A program made the position numbers and the translations under genes. Below, in pieces: positions 13,401 through 30,042 of a stretch of DNA of 39,577 nt. How positions within the stretch are numbered: the first letter of the stretch is position 1; the number at the start of each line of letters is the position of its first letter. The DNA lies in NCBI RefSeq assembly GCF_030696805.1, contig NZ_JAUYRO010000091.1, forward strand, positions 1 through 39,577, given 5' to 3'. The stretch comes from Methyloversatilis sp. (GTDB taxonomy: Bacteria; Pseudomonadota; Gammaproteobacteria; Burkholderiales; Rhodocyclaceae). The notes under the pieces were generated by a model. It searched no databases. It was not told the origin of the DNA and worked only from the letters and a program-made list of their open reading frames with translations.

Positions 13401-16400
13401 GACCGTCGTGTTGCTGGTCTGGTCAAGCACGCCCGCCAGCGAAAGTACGCCGCCACCAGCGATCGTGCCGCCGGTCCAGGTCAGGTTGCCCGACATCGCG
13501 GTATTGCCCGCAACGTTCAACGTGCCGCCCGACAGGTCGATGCTGGCTGCGCTGCTGGCCACGTTCAGGTTGGCGGTACCCGAATCGATGTCCAGCGTTG
13601 CAAGGCCGAGGTCGGCATTGATGTTGGCCACGTAGCCCGCAACGCGCAGCGTTGACGACGGCAGCGTGACGGCCGCGTTGAAATTCACGGTGCCGCCGCG
13701 GGGCGTCAGCGCTGCGAATGCCAGACCGCCCGCATTGAATGTCGAGGTGCCATTGGCCTGATCGAAATCGGCGATCGTGCCGCCGCCGTTGGCAATGAAC
13801 TGGCTGGCGGCAGCGCTGACCGAAACGCCGTTCAGGTCGAGCGTACCCAGCGCTTCAAAACGGCCGCCGTTGACTGTCAGCGTGCGGCCGACGCGCGTCG
13901 CGCCATTAACGGTCAGGCTGCCGCCGCTGATCGTCAGCGATTCTTCCGACGACAGCGAGCCAACGGTCCATGCGCCTGTGCTGATGGTGACAGTCGGCGT
14001 GAAGCCAACGCGATCGATCAGCACTGTCTGCGTCGCGGAATTCGGTGCCGCGCCGAGTGACCAGTTGCTGCCGACCGACCAGTTGCCATCGACATTGCTG
14101 ACCCATTCGTTGATGCCGGTCAGCGCGCTGCCATTGCCCAGAACGTGATTGGCCGCGCCGTAGTAGCTGCCATAGCCGAAGCCTGCCGGCACATCGAGCG
14201 TTGCGAATTCCCGGCCGGCGATGCGGGCGTTGTAGCGCACCAGCCGGAAGCCGGTGTTTGCGCCCGGCGTATAGCCGCCTTCATGCGTCGCGCGCAGCGT
14301 GCCGCCGAAGGTGACCGTGCCGGTGACGTCCAGTGCGTCGTACTGCGTGCCGCGTTCGCTGCCGGCGATCCCGACCTCAAGTGTGCTGGCGGCACCCAGC
14401 ACCAGATTTCCGGTCACGGTGAGCAAACCGTCCGGGCGCAGCACGCCATTGTTCGTGAGGGTGTTCGCACCCAGATTCAGGCTGCCGAAACCGCGGATGA
14501 CACCGGAACTGGTGAAACTGGTTGATGAGGTGATCACGCCGCCTTCGAGGCGCAGGGTGCCGGCATTGCTCCAGTTGGCGCCGCTGAAAGCGAAGGTCTT
14601 GCCGGCAGTGCCGGCGATGGCGGTCCCGGAGAAGGTGCCGCCAGCGCCCATGTTGATGCCGCCGGACTGAGAGCCGGTAAGGCTGATGCCGGCGCCGACG
14701 TTCAGAGTGTTGTTGCTGTGCCAGGCAGTGATGTCGTTGTTGGCGTTGTCGGCGCCGGCGAAATCGATGCTGCCGTTGCCGGCGATGTTGAGCGTGGTGA
14801 GACCGGCGGAGGTGTTGCCGCGCAGATAGGTGCTGGAGCCGGTGCTGGCGAGCCGCACGGTGGCGCCGTCGAGCGTGAGCGTGCCGCGCGCCTCCATGCT
14901 CTGGCCGTTGCCGACGACATACAGGCCGGAGCCGTCGACACCCTGTACGCCGGCGAGCGTGGTGTCGATCAGGTAGCCGACGCTGTTCATGACGAGCGCA
15001 CCGCCGGCCGGGTTGTGGGCGCGGATGGTGCCGCCGGTGATCGAGCCGCTGAGCAGCACGGCACCGGTGGAATCGTCGAGCAGCAGGGTGGCGCCGGTGT
15101 TGTTGAGCGCGCCGGTGATGGCGAGGGTGCCGGCGGCGACACCGTCGCGATCGAGCGAATTGAACGAGGCGGTGTTGAAGGCGCCGCCGAGGTTGAGCGT
15201 GCCGCTGTCCAGATCCAGGGTGCCGGAAGAGGCCCAGGTGGTGTTGTTGCTGGAGGTGAGCGAGACGGTGCCGCCAGCGGCGCGCAGGGTGCCGGCGTTG
15301 TTCCAGTTGGCGCCGCTGAAGGCAATCGTCTTGCCGGGGGTGCTGGCGATGGCCGTACCGGAGAAGGTGCCGCCGACGCCCATGTTGATGGCGCCGGACT
15401 GAGAGCCGGTGAGGGCGATGCCGGCGCCGATGTTGAGCGTGCTGTTGCCGTGCCAGGCGGTGACATCGTTGTTGGCGTTGTCGGCGCCGGCGAAGTCGAT
15501 GCTGCCGTTGCCGGCGATGTTCAGCGTGGTCAGGCCGGCGGCGGTGTTGCCGCGCAGATAGGTGGCAGTGCCAGTACTTGCCAGACGGACGGTGACATCG
15601 TCGAGCGTGAGCGTGCTGCGTCCTTCGAGGAAACCGTTGTTGACGACGGTCACCAGTGCGTTCGATGCGAGGCCGGTACGCTTGCGCAGCGTGCCATTGG
15701 TCATGTAGACGCCGCCGACCTGCAGTCCGGTTTCGCCGATGACCAGGGTGGTGTTGTTCAGGGCGCCACCGCCGGTCAGCGTGGACTGGGCGCCGAGCAG
15801 GCTCAGCACGCCGCCCGAAACGACGCCGCCACTGAGCGCGAGGCGATTCAGGTCGAGCTGAGTACCCACGGTCAGCGTGCCACCCGACACCGACAGCGTG
15901 CCGTTGATCGTGGAATCGTCGGTCAGCGTCAGGGCGCCGCTGATGACGGAAATGTTCTCGTTCGAGAACAGGCTGTTGATCGTGATGGGCCCGCCGATGC
16001 TGCGCACCGTGATCGTGAGATCGCCGGCCTGATCGATCACCACGTCGGTGGTGGCGGTCGGCAGCAGGCTACCGGCCCAGTTCGATGCGATGTCCCAGAA
16101 GCCCGATGCCTGGGAAATCCAGGTGCTGGCGAGCGTGCCGGTGGCAAAGCTCAGCGCATTCGAGAAGGTGGTGGCGGTCGCGGTCAGCCCGTTGGCATCG
16201 ATGCTGGCGAAGCTGCCGGTCAGACAGTCGAGGTTCGCACAGGACAGCACGGTGTAACGGTCCTGCGCACCAAGCACGACGCCATTCGCCGGCGTGATGA
16301 CCAGATCGCCACCCAGCGATATCGTGCCGCTGACCTGCAGTCTGTCCTGCTGCGCAACCGACGTGCCCAGCAGATCCACTTCAAGCGTGCCTGCTGCCGT

Positions 16401-19400
16401 CTGCACCAGATTGCCCTGAACGCTCAGCAAGCCCGCGCTGCCGCTGCTGCCCGGCTGAAGCAGGCCTGCATTGGTCAGCGTGCCGGTGCCGACGTTGATC
16501 GTACCGACGCCGTCGATGCTGCCGTTGTTCAGCAGGTTGGTGTTGCCGGTGACCAGCGACGCATTGTTCAACAGCGTCACGCGACCATTGTTGATCGGGA
16601 ACGCACTGGCTGTGAGCACGCCCTCCTCGATGCGCAGCACGCCGGTATTGGTCAGCGGCATCGCCAGCGTGAGCCCGGTCGGCCCGCGCTTGACCAGCAG
16701 TCCGGCGTTGTCGATGCGACCGCTGGTGGTGTGCGTGATGCTCGCACCGTTCTCGAGCACGACGCTGCCGCCCGAGGCAATCGCAAGTCGTGCGCCGTTC
16801 AGGCGCAACCCGTTGCCAGTCTGGTCAGCAATGCTCAGGTTGCCGGTGACACGGATTTCGCGCGAGGTGTCCTTGCTCGCGCTGCCCGAGGCGATCGTCG
16901 ACGCCCCTGCCAGCGTGACCACGCCACTGCCTGTCAGCGAACCACTATTCCACGTGAACCGGTTGCCGATGGTGATGTCGGCGCTGCCGCCGAGCGAACC
17001 ACCGCTCAGTTCGAGATTGGCGATGCCGGTCGCCGCGGTCGCGGCAAAGGTGCCGCCGCTCAGGCGCAGCAAACCGGGTCCGGTGATCTGCGTGGCGAGA
17101 TCGGCGGTGAGGGTGCCGCCAGTCTGCTGTACGACGCCCGGCCCGGCGAGCAGGAAGCTGCCGCCGATGACGTTGTTCGAAGATCCGTCTGCCGAGACGA
17201 ACAAGGTGTTGCCCTCGGTCACGACGATGCGCCCGCCCGCTGCAGACGAGAGCTGGGCAAGTCCGTTGCCCGCGCTGTTGAAGCTCTCGTTCATGTAGAG
17301 GTAGCCGTTGCCGGCAGTGGCCAGCGTGCCCGTCGCGCCAACGTGCAGCGTGCCGCCGTCGCGGATGTACAGGTCCGAACTGGCGGAATTCGACAGTGTC
17401 AGCGTGCCCGCCACTTCGAGGCGACGCTGCAGGTACTTGATCGTGTTGAGCTGGGTCAGCGCGCCACTGCCGGCCAGCACCGTTGTACCGGTACCGGCCA
17501 TCGTGCCGGAACGCCAGTCGAGCTGGTTCAGCGTGAACGTGCCGGCGCCGTCGAGCGTACCGCCGGTCAGTTCCAGATTGGCGATGCCGGTTGCCGCGCC
17601 TGCGAACAGCGTGCCGCCCGTGAGCCGCAGCACTCCGGCGCCGGTGAATGCGCTCGCCTGATCGACCGTGAGCAGGCCGGAATTCATCTGTACGGCGCCC
17701 GGGCCGGTCAGCGTGAAATTGCCGCTCATCAGGTTGCTCGCTGCGCCGTCCGCCGTCAGGAACAGCGTCGTGCCATCGGCCACCGCAATTCGCCCGCCCG
17801 CTGCCGATGTGAGCGCAGCAACGCCATTGTTGCTGCCGTTGCTGCTCTCGTTGAAATAGATGTAGGCATTCGACGAGGTGGCCAGCGTGCCGGTGGACGC
17901 GATGTGCAGCGTGCCGCCGTCGCGGATATACAGGTCGTAGTTCGTGTTGTTGCCCAAAGTCAGCGTGCCGGCAACATCAAGTCGGCGATGCAGGAACTTG
18001 TAGGCCGATGCGTTGTTGATCGTGCCGGTGCCGGCGAGGACCGTGGTACCGCTGCCGATCATCGTGCCGGAACGCCAGTCGAACTGGTTCAGCGTGATCG
18101 TGCCCGAGCCGTCGAGCGTGCCCGAACCGGTCAGTTCCAGATTGGCGATGCTGGTCGCCGCTCCGGCGAACAGCGTGCCGCCATTGAGCCGCAGCAGGCC
18201 GGCACCGGCGAACGCGCTCGTCTGATCGATCGTGAACAGGCCGCTGTTGACCTGCACGGCACCCGGCCCGCTCAGCGCAAAGTCGCCGCGCAGGTGATTG
18301 CTGGCTGCGCCGTCGGCCGTCAGGACCAGCGTGGTGCCGTCGGCGACGGCAATGCGCCCGCCGGTATCGGCGCTGATGACCACGCTGCCGTTATTGGCGC
18401 CGTTGCTGCTCTCATTCAGATAGATGTAGCCGTTGGCCGAAGTCGCCAGCGTGCCGGTGCTCGCGATGTGCAGCGTGCCGCCGTCACGGATGTACAGATC
18501 GTAGTTCGTGCTGTTGCTGAACGTCAGCGTTCCGGCGACGTCAAGCCGGCGATGCAGGAATTTGTAGGCACTTGCAGAACCGATGGTCGCCATGGTGCCG
18601 GCCGCCAACACGGTGCGCCCGTCGCCCGACATCGTGCCGCCCGACCAGTCGAAGGCGTTGCCGATCGTGAAGTCCGCCGCCCCGGCCAGCGTACCGCCTG
18701 ACAGCGTGAAGCGGCTCGTGATGGCCGAATCGGCATTGACGAGCAGCGTGCCCCCCGACACGAGGAACGTGCCTGCACCGGTGATCTGTGCGCCGTCGAG
18801 ATGGATCGTGCCGGCCGACATCTGCAGCGTCGAGTCAGCGGCGATCTGCAGCGGCTGGCCGGCAATGTTGAAGGTGCTGGATTCCATCAGCACGCCGCCG
18901 CCATTCAGCGACGACGCGACCATTCCACCGATCGACGCGCCCTGGCCATCGCTGTAACCGTGCAGGCGCAACAGCCCGCCGCGGCTCTGGATGTTGCCGC
19001 TGATGTCCAGATACTGCAGGTAGGCGTTGCCGCTGCCTTCACCCTTGGCCAGCGTGCCCAGGGCGGTCAGTCGGCCACCTCCGGTCGTGGAACTGGACCC
19101 GCGCAGCACAGCGTTGTCGCTCAGCAGCAGCGTGCGACCTTCGGCAATGACCAGTTCGCGATCGATGGTGCGCGTGCCGCTCAGCGTGATCGAGGTATCG
19201 AGCACGGTGCGGCCGGTGCCGCCCATGTTGCCGCTGAGCCAGTTGAAGTTGTCGCGCAGTGTCAGATTGCCGCTGCCCAGCAGATTCGTGTTCGACAGGG
19301 TGTAGGTTCCAGTACCACCGATGACCGAATCGCCCTCAAGCGTGAAGCGACCGCCGGTCAACGCGAACAGGCCCGCGCCGGTCACGTTCAGGCGCGCCGA

Positions 19401-22400
19401 AAACTGATTGCCGAGATTGCTGTCGCTAAACAGGCTCAGCGTCAGGCCATCAGCCACGTCGACGGTGGCCCCCGCCTCGGCGCTGAACAACGTGACGCCG
19501 CTGGCGCCTGCATCGAAGTAGAAATGGCCGTCATTCGTGGTCGAACGCAGGATGGCGGTCGACGTCAGGTGCAGCGAGCCACCGTTCTGGACGTACAGCC
19601 AGTAGTTGTTGTCGGCGTCGAAGATGCCGGAGATTTCCAGCCGCCGCTGCAGGACCTTGTTCGCGACCACCTGCGGCATCGAGGCGGGGCCGCTGAGGTA
19701 GGTCGTGCCGGTGCCGAACATGCCGCCGCCGGCCCACACGAAGCGACTGTCGATATCGAGATTGCCGCTGCCGCTGAGATTGGCGCCTCTCAGCGCGAGC
19801 AGGCCGTCACCCCCGATGACCGAGTCTCCGGTGAGCGTGATGTTGCCGCTGGTCAGGGCAAAGGTGCCGGCGCCGGTCAGATCGACATCGACCGACATTT
19901 CGTTGCCGAGGTTGTTGTCCGAAAACAGGCTCAACGTGCGCCCGTCTGCGACATCGATTTCGGCGCCGGCCGCCGCAGTGAAGCGCGACGTGCCCGTGGT
20001 ACCCGCCTGCAGGTAGATGCTGCCGTCGTTCGTCGTGGTGCGCAGCCGGCCGCTTGCCGTCAGGTGCAGGGTGCCACCCGCCTGCACATACAGCAGGTTG
20101 TTGTTGTCCGCGTCGAGCGTGCCGCTGACTTCGAGCCGGCGCTGCAGGAATTTGTTGGCGTTCGATTGTGGCAGCGAAGCGAGTCCGCCGATGCGCGTGA
20201 CGCCGCTGCCACCCATTGAACCGGACGTCCATACGAAGCGGCTGTCGATGTCGAGATCGCCGTTGCCGGCGACGTTGCCGCCATTCATCGCAAACAGGCC
20301 GGTGCCGCCAACCGAAGACTCACCGGTCAGCGTGATCAGGCCGCCGCTGAATGCAAAGGTGCCTGCTCCGGTCAGATTCACATCGGCCGAGAAGGTGTTG
20401 CCGGCATTGCCGTCGGTGAACAGATACAGGTTACGTGAGGCACCGACATCGATCCGGGCGCCCTGGGCAGCGCTGAATGCAGCACTGCCGCTGCCGCCGG
20501 CCTGCAGATAGATGTTGCCGTCGTGCGTAACCGAGCGCAGCGTGCCGGTCGAAGTGATGTGCAGCACGCCGCCGTTCTGCACGTACAACCACTGGTTGTT
20601 GTTGGCGTCGAGCGTGCCGGACACCTCCAGTCTGCGCTGGATGAACCGGTTGCCTGTTGCCTGCGGCAACTGGGCCTGCCCGGTGATGCGGGTGACACCA
20701 TCGCCATACATGCCGCCGTTCAGCCAGCGGAAGTTGTTGCCGAGGGTCAGGTTGCCGCTGCCGTACAGATCGGCACCCGCCATCGCGAGGTTGCCGCTGC
20801 CGGTGATCACCGAATTGCCTGTCAGGGTGAAGCGCCCGCCGGTCAGCGCAAGCGTTCCTGCGCCGCCGGTCGTGAAACTGGCCGAAATCAGGTTGCCGAC
20901 CTGGCTGTCGGAATACAGGCTGAGCTGCCGCCCGGCGGCGACATTGACCTGTGCGCCGGCATCGGCGCTGAACAGCGCCGTGCCCGTCGCGCCACTGTTG
21001 AAGTAGATGTTGCCGTCATGCGTTGTCGACTGCAGCACGCCGGTCGACGTGAGGTGCAGCGTGCCGCCATTGCGGACGTAGAGCTGAAGATTGTTCTGCA
21101 GATCGAGCGAGCCGGCGATGTTCAGCCTGCGGTCGAGATAGCGGTAGTTGAAATTCGGTGGCAACTCGCCGGCACCGGTCAGCGTGACCGCGCCGGTGCC
21201 GGTCATGATGCCGCTGTACCAGACCAGCCCGCCGAGCGTCAGGGGCGCGCTGCCGTCCAGCGTGCCGGCGAGGTAGAGCGTGCCGGAGATCGCTGCGCTG
21301 GCGCCGTCGATGTCCAGCGTGCCGCTGTCCACCGTGTAGTCGCCATCGATCGCCACCCCGCCGCTGCCCTGCAGGCGTTGGCCGCCGACATGCATGTCGG
21401 CCGAGCTTTGCAGCACGCCGTCGGTGGTGACGGCATTGCGGAACTGTATGGTCGAGCCGGTGCCCCGAACCGTACGCAGCAGGATGCTGCCTTCGCCGGC
21501 CGTGAGCAACGGCACGATGATGTCAGCGCGTTGATCGCCGACCGCGGTGCCGTTGCTGTAGCCGGTCTGCATCGTGATGCTGCCGGTGCCCTGCGTGATG
21601 ATGCGCAGGTTTGCGCCGTGCGCGCCGCCGGTCACCAGATCGATGCCGGCACTCGGGCCGCCTTCTTCGCCACCGAGATTGCGCGTTTCGATCAGCAGGT
21701 TGCTGCCGGCAGCCAGAGCCAGGGTGCCGCTCGTTTCACCTGCGAGGTTTCCGCTCGCCGTATGGCTGAACGCACTGCCGCCGACCGTCACCGAACGTTG
21801 CGCACGCAGGATGATGTCGGTCGTCTTGCTCTGTTCCTCTATCTCGCTCTCGAACAGCAGCGTCGGACCGAGCGCGTCGGCGGTGATGGTGCCCGGGGTC
21901 GCGCCACTCCTGAACAGCTGCGAGCCGTCGTTGCTGCCGTCACCACTGCCGCCCTGGATGATGATGGCCAGCGGGTCGAGCAACAACTCGCCATTGCGGC
22001 CGCGCGCGGCGCGGGTATCGGTGCGGCCGCGGTAGAGCAGGGCCACCTTTCCGGACACTTCGACCTGACCGCCGTCGCCGCCGTCGCGACCGCCGCGTGC
22101 CCAGATGCTGCCGGCGAAGGCGGTGGCTTCGTCGGCCCATACGACGACCTTGCCGCCATCGCCGTTCAGCAGCGCATCGGACAGCAGGCTCACGCCATGT
22201 CCGACCCAGCTGATGCGCGCGTTGCGGACCTCCGCATTGGCGCCTTGCCAGTCGCCACCGACGAGGATGGAACCGCCGCCGGTATCGCCCGATGCATCGA
22301 GCACAGCATCGCCGTCGAGCACGACCGTGTCGGCCGTGACGACGATGACGCCGCCCTGACCGGCTGATGCGCTGACCGGTGCCGCGGGAGCGGGGCCGGC

Positions 22401-23549
22401 AGCGGTGGCCGGCAGATCGAGGTCGTCGCCGGCGACGGTTGTTGGAGCGGGCGCGGCGACGGGTACGGGCGTGCCTGCAGCCGTGGGCGCATCCACTCGG
22501 CCGACCGCACGCAGCGTACCTTCTACCGTCGCGCGCTGTTCGGCGCTGACTTCGATCCGGCCGCCTTCGGTGCCGCTTGCATCCACCCGCGCGCCCGCAT
22601 CGACGCGCACTTCGGGGGCGCTGATTTCGATCGAGCCGCCGGCACCGTCGGCGGTGTGCGCAACCGTTTCCGACTGTGCGGTGAGCGTGACGGATTTCGA
22701 GCCGCGCAGCACGATGCGGCCGTCTTCCGTCCGGTGGGCACCGGTGGCCGAAATCTTGCCCGCCTGCGTGAGCGCTGCACCGAACATACCGACACTGCCG
22801 CCGCGGGAAATCAGCTGACCGAGATTGATCGCTTCGCCACCGGCTTCGATCTTGACGCGCAGCGACGGCTGATGCGGATCGGCAATCTCGACGCTTTTGC
22901 CGGCTGCCAGCACGATGTCGCCGTTCTCGGCGGTGATCAGACCGGTGTTTTCGACATCGGTGGCGATCAGGATCAGCGGGCCGCCGGTCGTCTTCAGCGT
23001 GCCGTCGTTGCGCAGCTTGCCGGCAGTGCCGTCGGCATCGAACTTCATCCTGCCGGCGAGGAAATCCTCATTCCGGATGTTCAGCGTCGACGCGACCAAG
23101 CCGGCGGTATCGACCTTCGCGCCGGCACCGAACAGCACACCATTCGGATTGATCAGGAAAACGCGGCCATTGGCGATCAGGTTGCCGAGGATTTTCGACG
23201 GATCCTGACCGACCACGCGGTTGAGCACGCTGGCGGTCGAATTCGGCTGGATGAAGCGGGTGGTTTCGCCCGGCTGAATCGAAAACTGCTGCCAGTTGAT
23301 GATGGCCTTGTCGCTGGCCGTGATGTTCAGCGTGCTGCCCTGGACTTGAACGCCCACATTGCCGTGGACCACCTGATGACCGGTCGGGTTGGCGATCGCA
23401 AGGCCGGGCAAAGCGGCCGCCATGGCAGCAACGACACGACGCAGCGCACGGGCGCCGCCGCCCTTGCCGCATGCCTTCGTTTCTTCCGGCACCGGGACGT
23501 AGCCGCCCTTCTCTTCGGAAAAAACCAGTCTGTAGCGACCCTTGTTCAT
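4464..23549 (-). CDS. Giant filamentous-haemagglutinin-like TPS exoprotein (6,361 aa)
   Basis: Secreted large adhesin-type protein, the TpsA partner of the transporter encoded just upstream. The N-terminus is an extended signal peptide region (MNKGRYRLVFSEEKGGYVPV...) with cleavage near AIA53. The TPS/haemagglutination domain follows (about 54-290), with the hallmarks SVLNRVVGQDPSKILGNL and INPNGVLFG. About 5,800 residues of Gly/Thr/Asn/Ser-rich beta-helix repeats come next, organised in 165-, 188-, 210- and 244-residue units and punctuated by five W...NW modules. Near the C-terminus lie a cadherin/Ig-like motif (YTANAGFNGNDSARFTL), a proline run (~6277-6295) and a short unique tail. There is no autotransporter barrel, sorting signal or recognisable CdiA-type toxin. 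GAGG lies about 5 nt before ATG 23549. The frame is uninterrupted. Adhesion or biofilm function is inferred. Confidence 0.93.
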   Translation of the reverse strand: MNKGRYRLVFSEEKGGYVPVPEETKACGKGGGARALRRVVAAMAAALPGLAIANPTGHQVVHGNVGVQVQGSTLNITASDKAIINWQQFSIQPGETTRFIQPNSTASVLNRVVGQDPSKILGNLIANGRVFLINPNGVLFGAGAKVDTAGLVASTLNIRNEDFLAGRMKFDADGTAGKLRNDGTLKTTGGPLILIATDVENTGLITAENGDIVLAAGKSVEIADPHQPSLRVKIEAGGEAINLGQLISRGGSVGMFGAALTQAGKISATGAHRTEDGRIVLRGSKSVTLTAQSETVAHTADGAGGSIEISAPEVRVDAGARVDASGTEGGRIEVSAEQRATVEGTLRAVGRVDAPTAAGTPVPVAAPAPTTVAGDDLDLPATAAGPAPAAPVSASAGQGGVIVVTADTVVLDGDAVLDASGDTGGGSILVGGDWQGANAEVRNARISWVGHGVSLLSDALLNGDGGKVVVWADEATAFAGSIWARGGRDGGDGGQVEVSGKVALLYRGRTDTRAARGRNGELLLDPLAIIIQGGSGDGSNDGSQLFRSGATPGTITADALGPTLLFESEIEEQSKTTDIILRAQRSVTVGGSAFSHTASGNLAGETSGTLALAAGSNLLIETRNLGGEEGGPSAGIDLVTGGAHGANLRIITQGTGSITMQTGYSNGTAVGDQRADIIVPLLTAGEGSILLRTVRGTGSTIQFRNAVTTDGVLQSSADMHVGGQRLQGSGGVAIDGDYTVDSGTLDIDGASAAISGTLYLAGTLDGSAPLTLGGLVWYSGIMTGTGAVTLTGAGELPPNFNYRYLDRRLNIAGSLDLQNNLQLYVRNGGTLHLTSTGVLQSTTHDGNIYFNSGATGTALFSADAGAQVNVAAGRQLSLYSDSQVGNLISASFTTGGAGTLALTGGRFTLTGNSVITGSGNLAMAGADLYGSGNLTLGNNFRWLNGGMYGDGVTRITGQAQLPQATGNRFIQRRLEVSGTLDANNNQWLYVQNGGVLHITSTGTLRSVTHDGNIYLQAGGSGSAAFSAAQGARIDVGASRNLYLFTDGNAGNTFSADVNLTGAGTFAFSGGLITLTGESSVGGTGLFAMNGGNVAGNGDLDIDSRFVWTSGSMGGSGVTRIGGLASLPQSNANKFLQRRLEVSGTLDADNNNLLYVQAGGTLHLTASGRLRTTTNDGSIYLQAGTTGTSRFTAAAGAEIDVADGRTLSLFSDNNLGNEMSVDVDLTGAGTFALTSGNITLTGDSVIGGDGLLALRGANLSGSGNLDIDSRFVWAGGGMFGTGTTYLSGPASMPQVVANKVLQRRLEISGIFDADNNYWLYVQNGGSLHLTSTAILRSTTNDGHFYFDAGASGVTLFSAEAGATVDVADGLTLSLFSDSNLGNQFSARLNVTGAGLFALTGGRFTLEGDSVIGGTGTYTLSNTNLLGSGNLTLRDNFNWLSGNMGGTGRTVLDTSITLSGTRTIDRELVIAEGRTLLLSDNAVLRGSSSTTGGGRLTALGTLAKGEGSGNAYLQYLDISGNIQSRGGLLRLHGYSDGQGASIGGMVASSLNGGGVLMESSTFNIAGQPLQIAADSTLQMSAGTIHLDGAQITGAGTFLVSGGTLLVNADSAITSRFTLSGGTLAGAADFTIGNAFDWSGGTMSGDGRTVLAAGTMATIGSASAYKFLHRRLDVAGTLTFSNSTNYDLYIRDGGTLHIASTGTLATSANGYIYLNESSNGANNGSVVISADTGGRIAVADGTTLVLTADGAASNHLRGDFALSGPGAVQVNSGLFTIDQTSAFAGAGLLRLNGGTLFAGAATSIANLELTGSGTLDGSGTITLNQFDWRSGTMIGSGTTVLAGTGTINNASAYKFLHRRLDVAGTLTLGNNTNYDLYIRDGGTLHIASTGTLATSSNAYIYFNESSNGSNNGVAALTSAAGGRIAVADGTTLFLTADGAASNLMSGNFTLTGPGAVQMNSGLLTVDQASAFTGAGVLRLTGGTLFAGAATGIANLELTGGTLDGAGTFTLNQLDWRSGTMAGTGTTVLAGSGALTQLNTIKYLQRRLEVAGTLTLSNSASSDLYIRDGGTLHVGATGTLATAGNGYLYMNESFNSAGNGLAQLSSAAGGRIVVTEGNTLFVSADGSSNNVIGGSFLLAGPGVVQQTGGTLTADLATQITGPGLLRLSGGTFAATAATGIANLELSGGSLGGSADITIGNRFTWNSGSLTGSGVVTLAGASTIASGSASKDTSREIRVTGNLSIADQTGNGLRLNGARLAIASGGSVVLENGASITHTTSGRIDNAGLLVKRGPTGLTLAMPLTNTGVLRIEEGVLTASAFPINNGRVTLLNNASLVTGNTNLLNNGSIDGVGTINVGTGTLTNAGLLQPGSSGSAGLLSVQGNLVQTAAGTLEVDLLGTSVAQQDRLQVSGTISLGGDLVITPANGVVLGAQDRYTVLSCANLDCLTGSFASIDANGLTATATTFSNALSFATGTLASTWISQASGFWDIASNWAGSLLPTATTDVVIDQAGDLTITVRSIGGPITINSLFSNENISVISGALTLTDDSTINGTLSVSGGTLTVGTQLDLNRLALSGGVVSGGVLSLLGAQSTLTGGGALNNTTLVIGETGLQVGGVYMTNGTLRKRTGLASNALVTVVNNGFLEGRSTLTLDDVTVRLASTGTATYLRGNTAAGLTTLNIAGNGSIDFAGADNANNDVTAWHGNSTLNIGAGIALTGSQSGAINMGVGGTFSGTAIASTPGKTIAFSGANWNNAGTLRAAGGTVSLTSSNNTTWASSGTLDLDSGTLNLGGAFNTASFNSLDRDGVAAGTLAITGALNNTGATLLLDDSTGAVLLSGSITGGTIRAHNPAGGALVMNSVGYLIDTTLAGVQGVDGSGLYVVGNGQSMEARGTLTLDGATVRLASTGSSTYLRGNTSAGLTTLNIAGNGSIDFAGADNANNDITAWHSNNTLNVGAGISLTGSQSGGINMGAGGTFSGTAIAGTAGKTFAFSGANWSNAGTLRLEGGVITSSTSFTSSGVIRGFGSLNLGANTLTNNGVLRPDGLLTVTGNLVLGAASTLEVGIAGSERGTQYDALDVTGTVTFGGTLRATHEGGYTPGANTGFRLVRYNARIAGREFATLDVPAGFGYGSYYGAANHVLGNGSALTGINEWVSNVDGNWSVGSNWSLGAAPNSATQTVLIDRVGFTPTVTISTGAWTVGSLSSEESLTISGGSLTVNGATRVGRTLTVNGGRFEALGTLDLNGVSVSAAASQFIANGGGTIADFDQANGTSTFNAGGLAFAALTPRGGTVNFNAAVTLPSSTLRVAGYVANINADLGLATLDIDSGTANLNVASSAASIDLSGGTLNVAGNTAMSGNLTWTGGTIAGGGVLSLAGVLDQTSNTTVYLRQTTLVHSNSSGNSRIANTSGSGFNIENGALLRNTGSLTLSVEAPNGILYIDHDTGPLGGRFENTGTLTKIGAGRADIGNFGTMTFVQDGTLNVEAGSLTLGNTVSLSGTQNVSAGAFLQILGGTTTVAAGGAFNGAGTLAQSGGTLILGDGVRIASIYALSSSGTLNVATGTSVDIDGRFNWTGGTITGGGVLDANGVFDQSGNTTVRIVATTLQHHDTSGESRIANTSGSGFNIENGGLFRNTGALALIVEAPNGNLYIDHDSGAASRFENTGALTKRGAGNVDFGSFGNVSFDQLGGFVVSEGTASLNNAVLLGGTQQIAEGATLQVVGGTTTLSAGGRIDGAGQFRLNNGTLALGDNASINARFAQSAGTLLLSPGIDALISNRYDWSAGTVSGGNTLVSNLLVPGGTLTVSGELQLVGTSNVTLDNATLVHTHTGSGSRIGTNNGRSMLINNGAVFRNAAGALLTLDTPDSGNTLYIYQSGGTGSRFENFGSLVKSGIGTLDLGYNGNLIVQQSGTLLINEGTLSNNAVSTFAGTHQIAADALLLLNSSTSTLAAGSSFSGDGRVQQSSGTTTLGDGASITADVLLSGGTLNVATGASVIVDGDLQWTGGTLGGAGTLTLNGVLTQVSANTVTLNATQLIHANASGNSRIGNNNGRSILLNNGALLQNAAGALLTLETGNNNNTLYIYQSTGSGSRFENLGTLTKTGTGTLDLGYNGSLQIDQRGVLNVQQGLLSLNGVALLSGAQQLAAGATLDIRGATTTLAAAGSVTGAGNLSLSGGTLSLADGATIASTLIHSGGTLLGTGANTISGRYDWTAGTIAGDGTLTVSGPLQITGGNTQFLDARTLVHTNASGSSRIFKTSGAVNLNNGGVLRNASGARLLFDSGNGNFNLNSSGGGSLVNEGTITKVGGGSTSITSNVGFSQSGLVTIGQGTLSVANAFTNAGTIELLTSATFGNTSATTTNTGTVSGFGTLALGAQTFTNRGVVRPGGAGAVGTLSITGRYVQDAAGTLQIERGSAGTDALVVSSTAALGGTLVVSELPGYISTGGTSDVVTASALSGSFSTVTLPSGYSTQAVGNRQVLSYAGAICGGVCWDGGAGSLLWTDAANWTGDLLPGTNDLVFIDLGTISVELSNGNHTIRSLNTAAGNTLVVSGGSLTVTDVATLAGDLVISGGTANFNGAAQLARLMLSSGIFGGSGTATFTQSGSTWTGGDVSGTGRLVLAAGSTLSYGAGTRTIARRLDIEQGGRLSLDSGSLTTTGGASNAGVVNVAFGATGRYGGSATYLLDATGQFDGGGRIEFINSAQVTSQTTAPPIADNTFTVRVQDSARFTLTTPGAIANLELAGSGQVIAQAGLQAGSLTQTGGTLTLNAASGAGTYNWNGGTLAGSSTFSIVGGGSWTRGTLTGNLVIANGASLTLSGTGSDDVQSTSYKRFGAGSLTNFGTLNWLEGHIDVIGAGRVDNHGLIDLAADFSFGDRSTGTGTFTMVNHNSGVISKTAGTGEFAIGTLGIPGGTANYANFTNNGRINVFSGRLRFNIGYAGAPGGGTFIHNSFIEIGASSTLEIGGALTYNGDADLGAGGVLRRLGGFTINNGADIFGNGTIDVGASGTLTNAGALGTLEYGTLSVTGNFVQTDTGILDLWIGGTSAGTYDQLAVSGSVTLGGTLVVTEDPAYTRSPLSLALITAGNGISGTFATIDTPAAGYTTAVDGNAFRIGFGSIVCGGICWDGGAGTALWTDAANWSGDALPGLNDLVFIALDNGSSVVLNSGSHSIASLTTAAGNSLSISAGSLTLTGMSALAGDLTLSGSGTLVTNGRLDATRFTQNGGTFSGSGDLFVSAAFSHTGGSHIGSGRSVLGSAVTFAPGSYTFNRDFDIEGTLTHTSGTLTVAAQRTLTISGELDWTAGSIISGPGALDVADGANVLINDSMGGGFHTLSAITVNNAGTVNYAVAGGNSRELLLNDGTVFNNTGRFNFAGDNVVSENVGNGGTFNNSGTLAKTGGTGSSGFANQARFNNLDGGTVDSGTGTLLIQTEGSHAGVFNLAGNNVRFNGSTQTFADGSVLRGTSNFNGATIRADGNLIIDGTLNWSSGSTVTHAGGTGTLNVLGTSTLNINDSQGSGFHTLSAITVNNAGTVNYAVAGGNSRELLLNDGTVFNNTGRFNFAGDNVVSENAGNGGSFNNSGTLAKTGGTGSSGFDNLARLVDQGGSYRGETGTLQLASLGTVSGVMHIAAGATLTTAPALTNTGVIEGSGTLNVGGGTLTNSGIVRPGGDDQIGRLTVLGNFTQSAAGRIEAEFSGTSTNQFDVLDVRGDTLLDGVLEVQSLGSAVPVEGMQLPVVTASGALDAGALQLVAPTGFTTRTLGSSLSLGYTACTTGICWDGGAGSQLWTDAANWTGDVLPGVNDLVFITLAGGADVILNALPTVTVAGLTIGNANSLTLTGGVLNAPTTVQQGGTLNLDGGNLNFGNALLNNGTLNYAGGTMNGNVFANNGALNVLSGSAGNLTTNRLNNNGSVIVDSGATFEFGSGGGMIFANNGSVAVESGTLSVLAHDADASGPGADSGAYSVDSGATLRFRDAFRDFGPGSSITGSGDVEFTAFSGGVFNVNGGYNVGGETRVSGNTLVNFNSNATFGDLRVAGNIGGNGTLTVTDDLTWTAGSIGGNGRVIAVRGDTVLDGSNLALNGAVLNVGGSGLLNSGTQLALNGGSQLIVSDGASLGLGSNTRVGGTGSLVNRGTLEGTLGGGTSNVAVRLVNDGNVQASSGNLGLTGGIGGGGLFVIGDNATMELGGDLPPDIFNRIGGNGTLSFSPTSAPVINQSFVVTGGTPLLFGLRSGAVLSSGPNNGVLDGQQSAWQYTANAGFNGNDSARFTLSLGSGTAVINLSFNVNSAAEPPPPPPPPAPPPEPLPGPVSVTVLPLLRETVQPPKFKIPELATPKPQVQIASIDALSEIVTASGPSFEQPLREFSASRLQCR
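6795..7610 (-). repeat. Near-identical ~250-bp duplication, offset 564 bp
   Basis: Bases from 6795 to about 7045 recur from 7359 to about 7608 with only a few differences, an offset of 564 bp (188 codons). Both copies encode the same run, including SGFHTLSAITVNNAGTVNYA and RELLLNDGTVFNNTGRFNFA. The high nucleotide identity points to recent duplication or gene conversion. Confidence 0.85.
11290..13420 (-). repeat. 210-codon repeat units in the exoprotein
   Basis: Matching segments anchor at about 11311 and 11941 (630 bp apart) and at 12601 and 13231 (also 630 bp). Each encodes a block of the type SRIxNxxGxxxxxxNGxxxRNxxGAL followed by (L)YIxxxxGxxSRFEN and GxLxKxGxGxxDxG. The two pairs are more similar within than between, which suggests duplication of a pair of units. 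Confidence 0.7.
14562..15617 (-). repeat. Duplicated 244-codon segment in the exoprotein
   Basis: The segment 14562-14885 recurs at about 15294-15617, a 732-bp offset. Both encode ATYLRGNT/STYLRGNT, then GLTTLNIAGNGSIDFAGADN and a Gly/Thr/Ser-rich stretch ending in KTxAFSGANWxNAGTLR. Nucleotide identity is high but lower than in the 564-bp duplication. Confidence 0.8.
16860..18560 (-). repeat. Three ~188-codon tandem units in the exoprotein
   Basis: An anchor encoding YIRDGGTLHI (SDLYIRDGGTLHV in one copy) appears at 17341, 17902 and 18466, spacings of 561 and 564 bp. Each unit opens with RRLxVAGTLT and closes with a WRSGTM or WNSGSL type turn followed by TVLAG or VTLAG. Confidence 0.8.
19145..21135 (-). 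repeat. Four exact 165-codon tandem units in the exoprotein
   Basis: A common GTGCAG anchor occurs at 19569, 20064, 20559 and 21054, that is, exactly 495 bp apart each time. Each unit runs from RRLxxxGxxDxxNN through LYVxxGGxLHxTSTG, then a Gly/Ala-rich strand set, to FRWxxGxMxGxGxT or a close variant. The spacing is fully conserved while the sequence has drifted, so unit length appears to be under selection. Confidence 0.85.
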
Positions 23550-23713: not shown

Positions 23714-25300
23714 CTAGAAACTCAGGCTGAACGACGCGTGAACCCGGTGGCTGCCGGACGCGTAGCGGTCTGCGCCGTCGATCAGACGAGCGTAGTCGAT
23801 CCGCCCCGAGAGCCATGTGGAATAATTGACGCGCAGGCCCACGCCGGCCGAGAGCACGCCGTCTCCTGCAGTTTCACCCGGCTGCGGATTGACTCTGTAA
23901 AGATGTGCAACGTCGCCGAACAGCACGCCGCGCATGACCCAGATGTCCTCCGTCCAGGCCGGTGTATCGAGGTCGGCGCTGATCCGCCAGCCCCGATCGT
24001 TGGCCAGCACGCGCTCGCGCAAGCCGCGTACAGACTCGGCTCCGCCAATGCCGAACTGTTCGCCGGACACCAACTCATCGCGTGTGTACTGACCCTGCGC
24101 CTGCAGCCGCACGCGCCAGTCACGCGGCAACAACTGGAACCACGAAGCGCTCGCGCGCATCACTGCAAAGCGCGCGTTGGCACCGGCGCGCAGAGCGTTA
24201 AAGTCTGTGTCGCGACCATGTTCGCCGCCCTGCAGGTTGCGTGCGACGCTGATCTGCACGCCGGCTTCCCGCGTTTCGCCGAGCCAGTTGCCGCTCCACG
24301 AAAGGGAAATAGGATGCGTGATGACGCGCGGCACGAGATTGCCGGGAGTGTTGTCGAGCAGGAAACTGCTGTCGAAGTCGCGCCAGTCGGCGGCCAGGCT
24401 GATGCGCTGCGACAATTCGCCGATGCGCGGCAGATGCCAGTTGTGGCGCGCGGAAAAGATGCGGCCACTGCCCGACACGGTCGCGGTCGAATTCAGTACC
24501 TGTACCTGACCTGAACTGACGCTGGAAAAGCCCGCCACCAGATCGATCGAGTTACCGCTTTGGTATAACGGAATGCGGTAACCGAGCCCGACGATGGTCA
24601 CGTCGGACGGCTGTTCGATCGAGGTCGTGTATTGCACCGTTGCGACGTGGTCGCGGTTGAACAGGTTGTTGTGCTGCAGACCGACCGATATGCGGTGCGT
24701 ACCGGTCGAGGGCGTGCCGCTGTTGTCCACGGTCACGAATCTGCGCAGCGGATTGTTGTCCGTGACCGATACGGTTGCCGCGATTTCGCCCGGTTTGCGC
24801 GCCGAGCGGAACGTCACGTCGGTCCGCTTCGATGCATTTTCATTGGCCAGCGCCAACTGGTGCGCGACGGCCTCTGTATTCGGCATGCTGCCTTCTGAAA
24901 GGGCGGGCAAGCTGCGCCGGATGTTCTCGTCGTCGTGATGCGTCGCGCCCTGCAGCGTCAGCGCTTCGAGCTTCGGCTCGAGCACCTCAAGGGTGACCGT
25001 ACCGCTGCTCAGTTCCTGTTCGGGAATACTGACCTGCGCTGCGCCGAAGCCGCGCTCGTGGTAGGCGGACTGCAGCGCGGTGCGCGCCGCTTCGATCTCG
25101 GCAAATCCGACGGCCTTGCCGACATAGGGTGTGAGCAGTGCATCGATTTCAGGCGACCGGAAAACCGTACCGCCAGCGATCGCGTAGTTCCGGACCTCGA
25201 ATCGCGGACCATCGGAGGATTCTTCCGCGCGCACATCCGCCGATGCGAACACCGCCCCGCCTGCGATCGCGAATGCAAGTCCCGCCTTGACAATCGACAC
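23714..25300 (-). CDS. TPS outer-membrane transporter, FhaC/ShlB/HecB family
   Basis: TpsB partner that exports the giant exoprotein across the outer membrane. It has 528 residues: a signal peptide (cleavage near ADVRA25), a first POTRA domain (~33-108, including FEVRNYAIAGGTVFRSPEID and YHERGFGAAQVSIPEQ), a second POTRA domain (~109-180), then a beta-barrel from ~187. The Omp85-superfamily VRG motif is present as VRGLRER at 424-430. The C-terminal residue is Phe, as in outer-membrane barrels. The start is GTG 25300, preceded by a G-rich ribosome-binding site (ACGGGGG). It precedes the exoprotein gene, the usual TPS order. Confidence 0.93.
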   Translation of the reverse strand: MSIVKAGLAFAIAGGAVFASADVRAEESSDGPRFEVRNYAIAGGTVFRSPEIDALLTPYVGKAVGFAEIEAARTALQSAYHERGFGAAQVSIPEQELSSGTVTLEVLEPKLEALTLQGATHHDDENIRRSLPALSEGSMPNTEAVAHQLALANENASKRTDVTFRSARKPGEIAATVSVTDNNPLRRFVTVDNSGTPSTGTHRISVGLQHNNLFNRDHVATVQYTTSIEQPSDVTIVGLGYRIPLYQSGNSIDLVAGFSSVSSGQVQVLNSTATVSGSGRIFSARHNWHLPRIGELSQRISLAADWRDFDSSFLLDNTPGNLVPRVITHPISLSWSGNWLGETREAGVQISVARNLQGGEHGRDTDFNALRAGANARFAVMRASASWFQLLPRDWRVRLQAQGQYTRDELVSGEQFGIGGAESVRGLRERVLANDRGWRISADLDTPAWTEDIWVMRGVLFGDVAHLYRVNPQPGETAGDGVLSAGVGLRVNYSTWLSGRIDYARLIDGADRYASGSHRVHASFSLSF

Positions 25301-27077: not shown

Positions 27078-28193
27078 TCATCTTGCGGAATCGGTTTCGG
27101 CTTCATTATCGGTCTTTTTAGTCAGTTTCATGACGGCTTTGCGGCTCAGGTGAACGACCAGCAGATGGGCCGGCATACGCAGCCAGTGACCGCGCAGATA
27201 AAGCAGGAACTGGCTGACGGGTGTCAGGGCATCCATGGCACTCTCGTGCTGGGGTGATAGCGCACGTGTGAACAAAGTGTCCAGTACCTTCAGATGCAAC
27301 GGACCCGGAGCCATGCCCTGTAGCGCCGACGCTGTCACGGGCAGTATCTCGAGCGAAAGTATCCGCTCCAGATAACGGAAGGCAAGATAGATGGGGCGCG
27401 TCAGGCCGACGCCGGCTGCGCGCGCAAGCAGCTTTTGGTCGAAGCATGCGTCGCGGCTGCGGAATTCCGTGATCAGCGAGTAGAGGTCGAAAAGATCACG
27501 CAATCCGCTGTGAAACTCGCTTTCCAGAAACAGGTGTGTCGCACTGTGCAACACCATGTCCTGCGGTGAGAGTGTCATCAGCCGGCTGTCGGATGCAAGC
27601 GGTTCGGCTGCCGCGAGCATCGCCGACGAATCAGCAAGAATTCGCGACGTCAGCGGCGTCAGCGCGTGATGGATATCGAGCGTGGTGCCGCGACGAATGT
27701 GCGACATCGGCGGAATCTCATGCATCCACTGCCGATAGTAACGCTGGTCGTAGGCGTCACGATGCTGACTGACCCAACCATCCAGCATGAGCCCTGCTTC
27801 GACTTCTCCCAGCTTTTCGCGGGGCACCAGGATATCGATGTCGGAAAAGGTCCGTCCATGACCGGCCTCGAGACCGCGCAGGACGTACGCGCCGCCCTTC
27901 AGCACCACGATCCGGCTATCGACGGATTTCAGTGCGTCCAGTATCTGACGTATTTCATGACCCAGCGACAGATGCTGCTCCGCCACCAGCTGCGCGGCCG
28001 AGGCGAGGTGGAGCCACACCCGTTCCGGCACGTGATGCGTATGTCCGCTTCGGGAAATGACATGATGCAAAAGCCCGAGCAACTTCGACTTTCGGGCTTG
28101 CACGATGACGGTCTCCCACTGCCGCAAGGACATGTCAGCGGCACGCGCAGGGGCCACGAGCAATATGCAGAGCGGCAGTTTTATGGCGGTCAT
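27078..28193 (-). CDS. Nucleotidyltransferase-fold protein of the HprK-rel-A cluster
   Basis: This 371-residue protein belongs to the uncharacterised nucleotidyltransferase family (NTP_transf_5-like). The minimal NTase core is visible: VVLKGGAYVLRG (97-107), the two-Asp metal motif FSDIDILV (Asp118, Asp120) and a third acidic site LDIHHALTP (Asp173). Flanks are mostly helical, and the C-terminus is basic then acidic (KAVMKLTKKTDNEAETD). Its ATG overlaps the kinase stop as ATGA, indicating translational coupling. Members of this family are found beside HprK-related kinase A genes, but the substrate (protein, nucleotide or sugar) is unknown. AMP or other NMP transfer is only a family-level guess. 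Confidence 0.78.
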   Translation of the reverse strand: MTAIKLPLCILLVAPARAADMSLRQWETVIVQARKSKLLGLLHHVISRSGHTHHVPERVWLHLASAAQLVAEQHLSLGHEIRQILDALKSVDSRIVVLKGGAYVLRGLEAGHGRTFSDIDILVPREKLGEVEAGLMLDGWVSQHRDAYDQRYYRQWMHEIPPMSHIRRGTTLDIHHALTPLTSRILADSSAMLAAAEPLASDSRLMTLSPQDMVLHSATHLFLESEFHSGLRDLFDLYSLITEFRSRDACFDQKLLARAAGVGLTRPIYLAFRYLERILSLEILPVTASALQGMAPGPLHLKVLDTLFTRALSPQHESAMDALTPVSQFLLYLRGHWLRMPAHLLVVHLSRKAVMKLTKKTDNEAETDSAR

Positions 28194-29020
28194 CGCGTCG
28201 CGCGCATGTCGGCGAGCGCATCGAAGCAGGCTATCGCTTCGTCAAGGATGCTGTACTCGAACTCGAAACATCCGCTTGCGGCTGCGGTGCTCGCCAGTGT
28301 GCGGAAGGCCTGCTCGCCGAGACGGTCGCTGTTGAACGAGTTGTCGGCAAGCGCAATCACGGTGCGCGCACGGGCCATCGGTGACAGACGCAGCGCACTG
28401 CCCGCCCGGTACTTCGGGAACGCGATCCAGCCGGGGCGCGCCCGGACGTGTGTATCAGCGAGTGCCGATGACGGTACCTTCATGTGCGCCACGTCGCCCT
28501 TGTGGGTATCGGCAAAAACAGGCCCGATGACGTCGGCGCCCGCATATTCACGCATGACGTCGATCGACCGGTTCTTCAGGCTGATCGGGCGCGGAAGAGG
28601 AATCAGTTCCAGGGTGTCCGGGGTGATCATGGCGAGCTCATCGGACAGCAGTCGCCAGCCGCGCGCAGTCAGGCCGGCGCACAGTGTACTTTTGCCGGAA
28701 CCCGGCGGTGCCGGAAGAATGAGGGCGAAGCCGTTGCGCTCGACCACCGCAGCATGAATCAGTACGCAACGATGCATGTGCATCGCGATGCACCAGTTGA
28801 GGCCCCACTCGAAAAGCGGAAAGGCCTGATGTTCCGGCAGTGGCTTGAACGGACGCACACCATCGAGATCGAACGTGATCTGCGGATGGATCGGTCTGCG
28901 GAGAAATCCCGGCGGGATGAGCCTTACGGAAAAATCACAAAACCCGTCGGCCGGCTCAGGAGGGTTGTCCGCATAAAAAAAATCGAAAGCATGCCAGAAC
29001 GCGGGCAAATCACATTGCAC
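28190..29020 (-). CDS. HprK-related kinase A
   Basis: P-loop kinase related to the HPr Ser kinase/phosphorylase C-terminal domain, belonging to a family with no known substrate. Counting from GTG 29020 (276 aa), the marks are FEWGLNWCIAMHMH (70-83), Walker A PPGSGKST (105-112), LLSDELAMI (124-132, the acidic site), RPISLKNRSIDV and THKGDVAHM. No HPr or PTS gene is nearby. The start is uncertain: the frame continues upstream as IRIGSFSVRV, which resembles the family's normal N-terminus, back to a stop at 29105-29107 without any ATG, GTG or TTG. A CTG at 29062 may be used. The gene is coupled to the downstream nucleotidyltransferase by an ATGA overlap. Confidence 0.85.
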   Translation of the reverse strand: MQCDLPAFWHAFDFFYADNPPEPADGFCDFSVRLIPPGFLRRPIHPQITFDLDGVRPFKPLPEHQAFPLFEWGLNWCIAMHMHRCVLIHAAVVERNGFALILPAPPGSGKSTLCAGLTARGWRLLSDELAMITPDTLELIPLPRPISLKNRSIDVMREYAGADVIGPVFADTHKGDVAHMKVPSSALADTHVRARPGWIAFPKYRAGSALRLSPMARARTVIALADNSFNSDRLGEQAFRTLASTAAASGCFEFEYSILDEAIACFDALADMRATR

Positions 29021-29128
29021 GCGTACCGAAAAGCTTCCGATTCTGATCTGGGAGTGTTTCAGGGGAACAACCTGCGGCGTGGATAGGTGGTCGGTCCACG
29101 CAGCTTAACGGCTTGCGACGCCCGCTGC

Positions 29129-29275
29129 TTACTGCTGCAGTACTTCCACGACAGCGAGTGTGCAATGCGCCGCGTCATAGACCACGGCTTCCGCTTCATC
29201 GGCAAACCGGGCTACAAGAAGACCTTCAGTTTCGATGAACTCTACCTGACCGGGCCGGTTGTCGCTTATCCCCAC
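29129..29275 (-). CDS. Short ORF, possibly a truncated PqqD-like protein
   Basis: A 48-codon ORF whose GTG start overlaps the end of the upstream exported-protein gene by 10 nt. The product has a stretch ARFADEAEAVVYDAAHCTL that recalls the small PqqD-related proteins often encoded before HprK-related kinase A, which are about 90 residues long. Here it stops after VLQQ, and neither other frame restores a longer match before the kinase. It could be a decayed remnant or coincidence, and no good ribosome-binding site is visible. The opposite strand also has an open frame here, so coding is unproven. Confidence 0.3.
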   Translation of the reverse strand: MGISDNRPGQVEFIETEGLLVARFADEAEAVVYDAAHCTLAVVEVLQQ

Positions 29276-30042
29276 GTGGTGGTCAGGTAGTCCTGGATCT
29301 GACCTGCATCGAGACCTGTTCCCATCAACTGGTATTGCCCTGAGGTGCTCGTGCCTCCACCCGTGATCGCATCCCAGATCGCACGAAGCTGGGGGAGCGT
29401 GATCGGGTAGGTCGTCGGGTAGGCCTTTGCATTCAACACCGCCGCTGCAATATGGCGGGCGAACTGTCCGATCGGTTGTGGAAAGGCAGCCGCGTTATTG
29501 CCGTAGGCAACCAGTTCCCAAAGACTCGCCTGACGGGTTCCGTTGCCGCCGAGACCCGGTATGCCGGTCAGACCGACCGTCGTACCCAACGCAGAAGAGA
29601 GCGTTGTGCCGAGCGAACACGCGACAGTCGAGCCATTGACCGTGACCGTGCCGGACACCTTCCACTTCGAGGTGTCCTTGATTTCGGGGAAGGGCGGCGG
29701 GTTGGTGCTTGTGTAGATGCTCCAGCGGCTACCGACCTTTTGGCAGATTTTCGGCGCCGGCACCGGCCACTCGCTCGTGAAGCGACTGCACTGTTGCCAG
29801 AAGCCGGGTGACAAGCCGATCTTGCAGTTCGGTGTCGTTCCATCGTTCCGGCTTACGTTGCCCGACATCTGCCCGGACAGCGTGCATTGGTAGGGCGTTT
29901 CGAACGTGGATTTCGCCTGCCGCGCCATCAGCACGCCGCCTACCGCGAACCCGGCCTTGAGCAGGCTGCGGCGCAGTGCCGTCTCCTGCGGTGTCGGTAA
30001 CGAAGCGTCGCGAGTGCGATCGATTTCCGATTTATTTTCCAT
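29266..30042 (-). CDS. Tat-signal-like exported protein, unknown function
   Basis: A 258-residue protein with a twin-arginine-type leader: LRRSLLKAG at 23-31 followed by a weakly hydrophobic segment GFAVGGVLMA. The mature part has five cysteines (53, 73, 85, 100, 142), a CKIGLSPGFWQQC segment and EWPVP, then later LWELVAYG and FARHIAAAVLNAKAYP. The SPGFW...WP...ARHxxAAxLNA layout resembles a family of exported proteins of unknown role. ATG 30042 is chosen because the frame's more upstream start is a TTG at 30096. Its ribosome-binding site is weak. It is first in the run leading to the kinase, so it is a candidate partner or substrate of that system. Confidence 0.7.
   Translation of the reverse strand: MENKSEIDRTRDASLPTPQETALRRSLLKAGFAVGGVLMARQAKSTFETPYQCTLSGQMSGNVSRNDGTTPNCKIGLSPGFWQQCSRFTSEWPVPAPKICQKVGSRWSIYTSTNPPPFPEIKDTSKWKVSGTVTVNGSTVACSLGTTLSSALGTTVGLTGIPGLGGNGTRQASLWELVAYGNNAAAFPQPIGQFARHIAAAVLNAKAYPTTYPITLPQLRAIWDAITGGGTSTSGQYQLMGTGLDAGQIQDYLTTTWG

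Follow-up and report, generated by a model that had tools for sequence, protein, structure and literature searches.

A kinase and nucleotidyltransferase cassette with candidate exported substrates in Methyloversatilis sp. and other Proteobacteria

Kinases of the HprK-related kinase A family are recognized by the NCBIfam model TIGR04352, whose family name, as shown, does not specify a substrate. A gene for such a kinase lies in a contig of Methyloversatilis sp. (NZ_JAUYRO010000091.1 of assembly GCF_030696805.1, positions 1 to 39,577), and this whole stretch of 39,577 nucleotides is called the window below. Genes for a nucleotidyltransferase and for a protein with a twin-arginine (RR) leader accompany it. 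What might such a kinase modify, and could the exported protein be its substrate? The original prediction treated the three genes as one uncharacterized system, in which the exported protein, folded in the cytoplasm, could be phosphorylated or nucleotidylated before leaving by the twin-arginine translocation (Tat) route. With moderate confidence, we propose that the cassette is an operon resembling those for linear polyphosphorylated peptides (the LPP family), in which an RRE domain would guide serine phosphorylation of full-size exported proteins.

Gene content of the cassette

The order on the minus strand is exported-protein gene, an open reading frame (ORF) of 48 amino acids (aa), HprK-related kinase A gene and NTP_transf_5 gene. 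The predicted three-gene grouping is thus present, as judged from the ORFs and from matches to TIGR04352 and PF14907. The features are the following.

29266..30042, minus strand: exported protein, 258 aa, type-1 candidate substrate (ATG at 30042, stop at 29268-29266; 47-sequence family alignment)
29893..29973, minus strand: RR leader with its hydrophobic stretch (residues 24-50), which has diverged from the form A-P-x-[VI]-[LM]-T-L that is common among related leaders
29851..29886, minus strand: serine ladder C53-x-x-S56-x-x-x-S60-G-N-x-S64, candidate phosphoacceptor (conservation in the 47-sequence alignment)
29797..29811, minus strand: S-P-G-F-W motif, residues 78-82 (conservation in the 47-sequence alignment)
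29129..29275, minus strand: 48-aa ORF, probable truncated PqqD/RRE (pN/pS; weak PqqD similarity)
28190..29062, minus strand: HprK-related kinase A (TIGR04352; start likely the CTG at 29062, with GTG at 29020 as the first canonical one)
28685..28702, minus strand: kinase P-loop GSGKST (kinase alignment)
28637..28642, minus strand: kinase acidic site D149-E150 (kinase alignment)
27078..28193, minus strand: NTP_transf_5 nucleotidyltransferase, 371 aa, with catalytic-type Asp 118, 120 and 173 (PF14907; conservation)

The kinase matches TIGR04352 at 362.5 bits (E 1.2e-108; cut-off 200), and its P-loop and acidic site are intact, as had been predicted. G129, G131, K132, T134, D149 and E150 are present in all 83 aligned kinases, a set without one fused ORF (G594; G numbers are genomes and L numbers loci), and S133 is present in 80. 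The model for canonical HPr kinase/phosphorylase, TIGR00679, is matched weakly over the P-loop and acidic region, and the score reaches only 15 bits against a cut-off of 240. No ATG, GTG or TTG start is found ahead of the family-conserved N-terminus in the window genome (G000), G011 or G006. A CTG at 29062, common to these three genomes, is likely the start, and G008 has an in-frame GTG upstream in its place.

The nucleotidyltransferase matches PF14907 at 169 bits (cut-off 31). Its expected aspartate set, D118, D120 and D173, is kept in 62 of 62 aligned proteins, although the gene body lies outside the interval to which the original prediction had assigned the system. The kinase stop and the NTP_transf_5 start overlap as ATGA, in agreement with the proposed coupling of the two genes. 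Neither protein has a PDB sequence match at E 0.1.

The cassette is flanked by the pyruvate dehydrogenase genes (aceE, aceF and lpd, identified by domain scan) and by rpiA. The neighbours scanned in the window were lpd, aceF and aceE on the first of these sides and, on the second, rpiA, phoU and a shlB-type gene. Elsewhere in the window, an ORF of 6361 aa (4464-23549, minus strand) adjoins a ShlB/FhaC-type outer-membrane transporter (23714-25300, minus strand; PF03865), and its position and size predict a giant two-partner-secretion exoprotein.

Co-occurrence of the gene set

TIGR04352 is matched over its cut-off in 24 of 61 genomes comprising the window's own and relatives, and in 41 of 369 genomes of the class. 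From these sets, which share two genomes, 63 distinct kinase loci were fetched with their flanks; the sub-cut-off locus G019b was dropped from the counts. Profiles built from members of these same 63 loci find the exported protein at 57 loci, a PqqD-family protein at 57 and NTP_transf_5 at all 63. The nucleotidyltransferase gene is upstream on the opposite strand at six loci, and at G068 only a contig-end fragment of it is present. Loci lacking an exported-protein match are G029, G151, G273, G363 (type-2 protein by reading), G075 (weak leader match) and G319 (contig end). A PqqD match is lacking in G407 and in five genomes of the window's genus, which have a short ORF. In G041 the exported-protein and PqqD genes are downstream.

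A close homologue of the exported protein occurs in 15 of the 61 genomes, and all 15 have the kinase over cut-off. The type-1 exported-protein profile, A1, matches 47 of the 369 genomes. The expected association of exported protein and kinase is not refuted by this survey, because the matches fall in 37 of 41 kinase-positive genomes versus 10 of 328 kinase-negative ones (no kinase match at E 1e-40). The 30 strongest A1 matches (E <1e-35) are all at kinase loci. Among the ten kinase-negative matches, four (G140, G144, G159 and G275) begin only at profile position 72 and cover an S/T-P-G-[YF]-W domain, and the remaining six are small peptides, matched by way of their leader. These counts support two parts of the original prediction, that the genes belong to one system and that the exported protein is the likely substrate; the chemistry is proposed below by analogy.

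At the level of the phylum, the kinase exceeds its cut-off in 51 of 299 genomes, and 20 new kinase loci of 46 were read. An upstream RR-leader protein is found at 15 of the 20, a PqqD match at 14 and an NTP match at 15 within the fetched DNA.

Exported proteins

The window protein has the five cysteines that had been predicted (53, 73, 85, 100 and 142) and an RR-S-L-L-K motif. The Tat leader also ascribed to it is less secure, in that the leader is degenerate and there is no match to the TAT_signal_seq profile TIGR01409; the motif alone marks it as a putative Tat leader. TIGR01409 matches one of the 47 aligned relatives (E 0.073), and the twin arginines are conserved in the family, R25 in 47 of 47 and R24 in 46.

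This type-1 alignment (A1) comprises 47 of the 57 exported-profile matches, leaving out three near-duplicates (G003, G229 and G337), G167, and six type-2 proteins (G041, G051, G117, G194, G346 and G374). Mean column identity is 17%. Besides R25, the invariant positions are C53, S60 and C73; S56 and N204 are present in 46 of 47, S64, G80 and W82 in 44, and G76, P79, W92 and L203 in 43, with S or T at position 78 in 46. Serines 56, 60 and 64 thus form a ladder directly after the leader. Of 57 cassette proteins, 39 show the strict ladder pattern. None of six domain-only proteins does; these share just the S/T-P-G-[YF]-W domain, and four of them come from genomes without the kinase and two from genomes with it. 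The exported family corresponds to no Pfam or NCBIfam model, and scans of its 47 type-1 members yielded nothing beyond isolated weak matches, one member each. Neither the fold model for the window protein (pLDDT 71.5) nor that for a relative from G394 (80.4) has a PDB match at E <=0.001, so no function can be read from the fold.

Two further occurrences of type-1 features lie outside the kinase loci. A domain with S/T-P-G-[YF]-W and, further on, L-N-A is found in larger, secreted-looking proteins (L121-L125 and L127; in L121 the motif is G-P-S-F-W). Another type-1-like protein, which carries both leader and serine ladder (L126, contig C20 of G356), is on a different contig from the kinase locus of that genome and has no kinase profile match within the fetched 8 kb; it is possibly a second substrate acting in trans.

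Type-2 proteins carry the same kind of leader on bodies that differ from type 1. Two of the 15 exported proteins in the phylum sample (G700 and G675) resemble type 1. Twelve of the other 13 have a C-terminal C-x-x-S, eleven as C-W-x-S-[FLI] and one as C-F-A-S-L, and G537 is without it. Ten proteins in the earlier sample are not type 1: C-x-x-S stands close to the C-terminus of six, another three have [ATSN]-S-[LIFA] but no Cys, and G041 has neither.

Type 3 (L112-L120) consists of peptides of 57-87 aa in one to three copies. The leader has invariant R-R, Y-x-A-P and T-L-x-A (alignment A3, n=13), and an equally invariant G-S pair follows it directly. Nine type-3 loci include a distant HprK-like kinase at five, a PqqD match at three and an NTP_transf_5 match at one; three of the kinases were scanned and score 49-85 bits with TIGR04352, under its cut-off. 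The peptides look like precursors of a related, smaller system. The type-3 profile matches 22 of 369 genomes, and the matches include eight type-1 or type-2 proteins at kinase loci, found through little beyond the leader, which ties the types together.

These patterns bear on whether the exported protein is a substrate at all. The kinase and nucleotidyltransferase might act elsewhere, on a small molecule, sugar, lipid or other protein, with the exported protein as a co-regulated partner, for example a binding or surface protein. HprK-like and NTP-transferase folds act on other substrates too, and the occurrence of the S/T-P-G-[YF]-W domain in large proteins outside the cassette fits this view. 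We nevertheless regard it as unlikely. The motifs of leader, ladder and C-terminus stay conserved on bodies that vary, none of the six domain-only proteins has the strict ladder and their profile matches start no earlier than position 72, and PqqD-family proteins bind peptide leaders (PMC12710340).

Leader motif and RRE component

Many type-1 and type-2 leaders carry A-P-x-[VI]-[LM]-T-L in their hydrophobic stretch, and type-3 leaders carry Y-x-A-P-x-[VI]-[LM]. The pattern Y-x-x-P-x-[LVIFA] is found in 13 of 13 type-3 leaders. A strict pattern, P-x-[VIL]-[LMIFV]-[TSA], is found in 13 of 13 type-3 leaders, 34 of 61 type-1/2 leaders and none of 27 control Tat leaders, taken from nine related genomes; this control began with 29 loci, one unreadable and one cut short, and contains many mutual orthologues. 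For several RRE groups, PqqD among them, W/Y/L-x-x-P/L/I is reported as the recognition sequence (PMC12710340), and the A-P-x-[VI]-[LM]-T-L motif resembles such docking motifs.

Most relatives have a full PqqD-family protein where the window has the 48-aa ORF. Against TIGR04353 (cut-off 35), the PqqD proteins of L049 and L106 score over the cut-off, and that of L059 scores under it at 19 bits. The 48-aa ORF begins with a GTG inside the end of the exported-protein gene, overlapping its stop, and its length is constant in four genomes (G000, G008, G011 and G006). Read in its own frame, the ORF has a pairwise ratio of nonsynonymous to synonymous change (pN/pS) of 0.04-0.33, against 0.38-3.07 when the stretch is read in either of the two alternative frames (four genomes; 11 of 12 comparisons could be computed). 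This pattern points to a real gene under purifying selection. In G002, of the same genus, a 67-aa version occupies the position. The idea that a frameshift links the 48-aa ORF with the kinase was dropped for the window, where the kinase frame opens only 24 nucleotides past the ORF stop.

The 48-aa ORF resembles the N-terminal part of PqqD weakly, with 3, 0 and 2 of 250 shuffles scoring as high for three 48-aa versions and 18 of 250 for the 67-aa version. Because of this weakness, its identification as a probable truncated PqqD/RRE is drawn from position and pattern.

The leader has drifted in the same branch. The window leader, KAGFAVGGVLMARQAKSTFE, contains no proline and lacks the S-R-P-A-[LW]-[AG] end common in relatives. 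In a score that leaves relatives out, the leaders of the five short-ORF genomes of the genus rank 66-71 of 74, and those of eight genomes of the genus with full PqqD rank 32 to 56. An earlier score, trained without the five, placed them at 69-73 of 74; the former is fairer. Leaders of G194, G363, G112 and G167 score as low or lower, though PqqD is found there. In the window branch, the RRE may have decayed along with the docking motif, a coupling that counts as n=1 because it is probably one evolutionary event.

The window copy might accordingly be seen as decaying or re-wired, such that its exported protein is maybe no longer docked or exported and its enzymes perhaps work leader-free. The absence of full PqqD from the five genomes, the low ranks of their leaders and the lack of a clear signal-peptidase site in the window protein, as judged by eye, agree with this. 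Constraint acts on both the 48-aa ORF and the kinase, however, the serine ladder and NTP_transf_5 aspartates are intact, and the losses probably amount to a single event. We consider decay or re-wiring improbable. With an RRE of just 48 aa and no leader motif, yet an intact ladder and intact enzymes, recognition in the window's branch would have to be RRE-light or leader-independent. Export is less certain than originally assumed, because the leader is degenerate.

Comparison with known systems

The HPr-rel-A set of NCBIfam comprises the TIGR04352 kinase and TIGR04353 (PqqD_rel_X), and an NTP_transf_5 partner is a defining part of the system. The window has this partner and a kinase over the cut-off. 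PqqD proteins of two of three tested relatives pass TIGR04353, and the window PqqD-like ORF does not match it. The model names, as shown, give no substrate; a candidate substrate family is offered here.

The closest characterized system is the LPP family (2026) of Bacillota. As described in PMC13381572, the LPP cluster includes an HprK-like kinase, a discrete RRE and an uncharacterized NTP transferase, and its precursors have a conserved leader with a Y-x-x-P-x-V-L motif and variable C-termini. The kinase, LppK, phosphorylates core Ser3 of LppA, just past the leader; LppK-dependent forms carry one to four phosphates, and S3A abolishes them (PMC13381572). The window likewise has kinase and NTP transferase in one cluster, judged by family and not by orthology to LppK and LppN. 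Its only RRE candidate is the 48-aa ORF, although PqqD profiles match at most related loci, and its leader lacks the Y-x-x-P-x-V-L type of motif. Other differences are that LPP precursors are 35-200 aa long, whereas the candidate here is a 258-aa RR-leader protein, and that the window host is a proteobacterium. LPP clusters also hold a SipW-like peptidase and an MsbA-like exporter (PMC13381572), and neither a SipW-like signal peptidase nor an MsbA-like transporter is found among the scanned window neighbours.

Clusters for paeninodin-like and pseudomycoidin lasso peptides (PMC8498205) also combine an HPr-kinase homologue that modifies a serine with a nucleotidyltransferase, and their C-terminal serine recalls the type-2 C-x-x-S. 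Substrate candidates here differ in being full proteins, and no macrolactam synthetase or B2 leader peptidase is found among the scanned window neighbours. In these closest experimental cases, phosphate is reported to be added first, and the nucleotidyltransferase to add hexose (PMC8498205). This order argues against a further arrangement, in which NTP_transf_5 would nucleotidylate the exported protein with AMP or UMP and the kinase would regulate NTP_transf_5. The invariant aspartate triad and the linkage of NTP_transf_5 with the kinase at 63 of 63 loci are compatible with that arrangement, which we judge very unlikely.

Proposed mechanism

The cassette is likely a variant of machinery consisting of an HprK-like kinase, an RRE and an NTP transferase, with full-size RR-leader proteins as the likely substrates. 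Phosphorylation is favoured by the LPP and lasso-kinase precedents, which were absent from the original prediction, as were the 48-aa ORF, the PqqD/RRE component, the leader motif, the serine ladder and the type-2 and type-3 proteins. From the gene set and its order, the conservation and co-occurrence, the catalytic-type residues and the candidate sites, we infer the following steps. In most relatives, the PqqD-family RRE would bind the leader of the exported protein through the motif in the hydrophobic stretch and present the protein to the HprK-like kinase. The kinase would then phosphorylate a serine, possibly several times. Given the LPP precedent, the modified residue should be a serine of the C-x-x-S-x-x-x-S ladder just past the leader in type 1, or that of the C-terminal C-x-x-S in type 2. 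NTP_transf_5 might next act on the phosphate, by capping, nucleotidyl transfer or glycosyl transfer. Finally, the protein would exit by the Tat route and its leader would be removed.

Several observations weigh against serine phosphorylation guided by an RRE. The strict leader motif is absent from 27 of 61 type-1/2 leaders, and leader conservation could be partly due to Tat targeting. The window leader lacks the proline of the docking motif, and neither the 48-aa ORF of the window nor the 67-aa ORF of G002 matches PqqD models. The strict ladder is missing from 18 of 57 cassette proteins, including type-2 members, and a looser pattern from 14. At five of the 20 phylum loci (G444, G485, G497, G536 and G676) no upstream exported protein was found, the upstream coverage of G485 being only 1.4 kb. 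Fisher's test of exported profile versus kinase gives p 4e-37 without kinship correction, which overstates independence because the profiles come from the same loci and the genomes are related. The NTP step is the weakest, because deletion of lppN caused no detectable change in the LPP study (PMC13381572).

Implications

No published description of the cassette was found in the open-licence literature searched. A broader idea, which we hold tentatively and consider rather doubtful, is that the cassette represents an unrecognized RRE-guided class that is widespread in Proteobacteria and has its docking motif inside the Tat signal. Three unrelated cargo types, namely serine-ladder proteins, C-terminal C-x-x-S proteins and G-S peptides of 57-87 aa, would be phosphorylated on serine and then capped before export, and phosphorylation could serve as a secretion checkpoint. 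For HprK-related kinase A, the analysis offers a candidate substrate family, candidate serine residues and a candidate docking motif. If the proposal is true, RRE-guided kinase chemistry would reach secreted proteins, beyond small peptide natural products.

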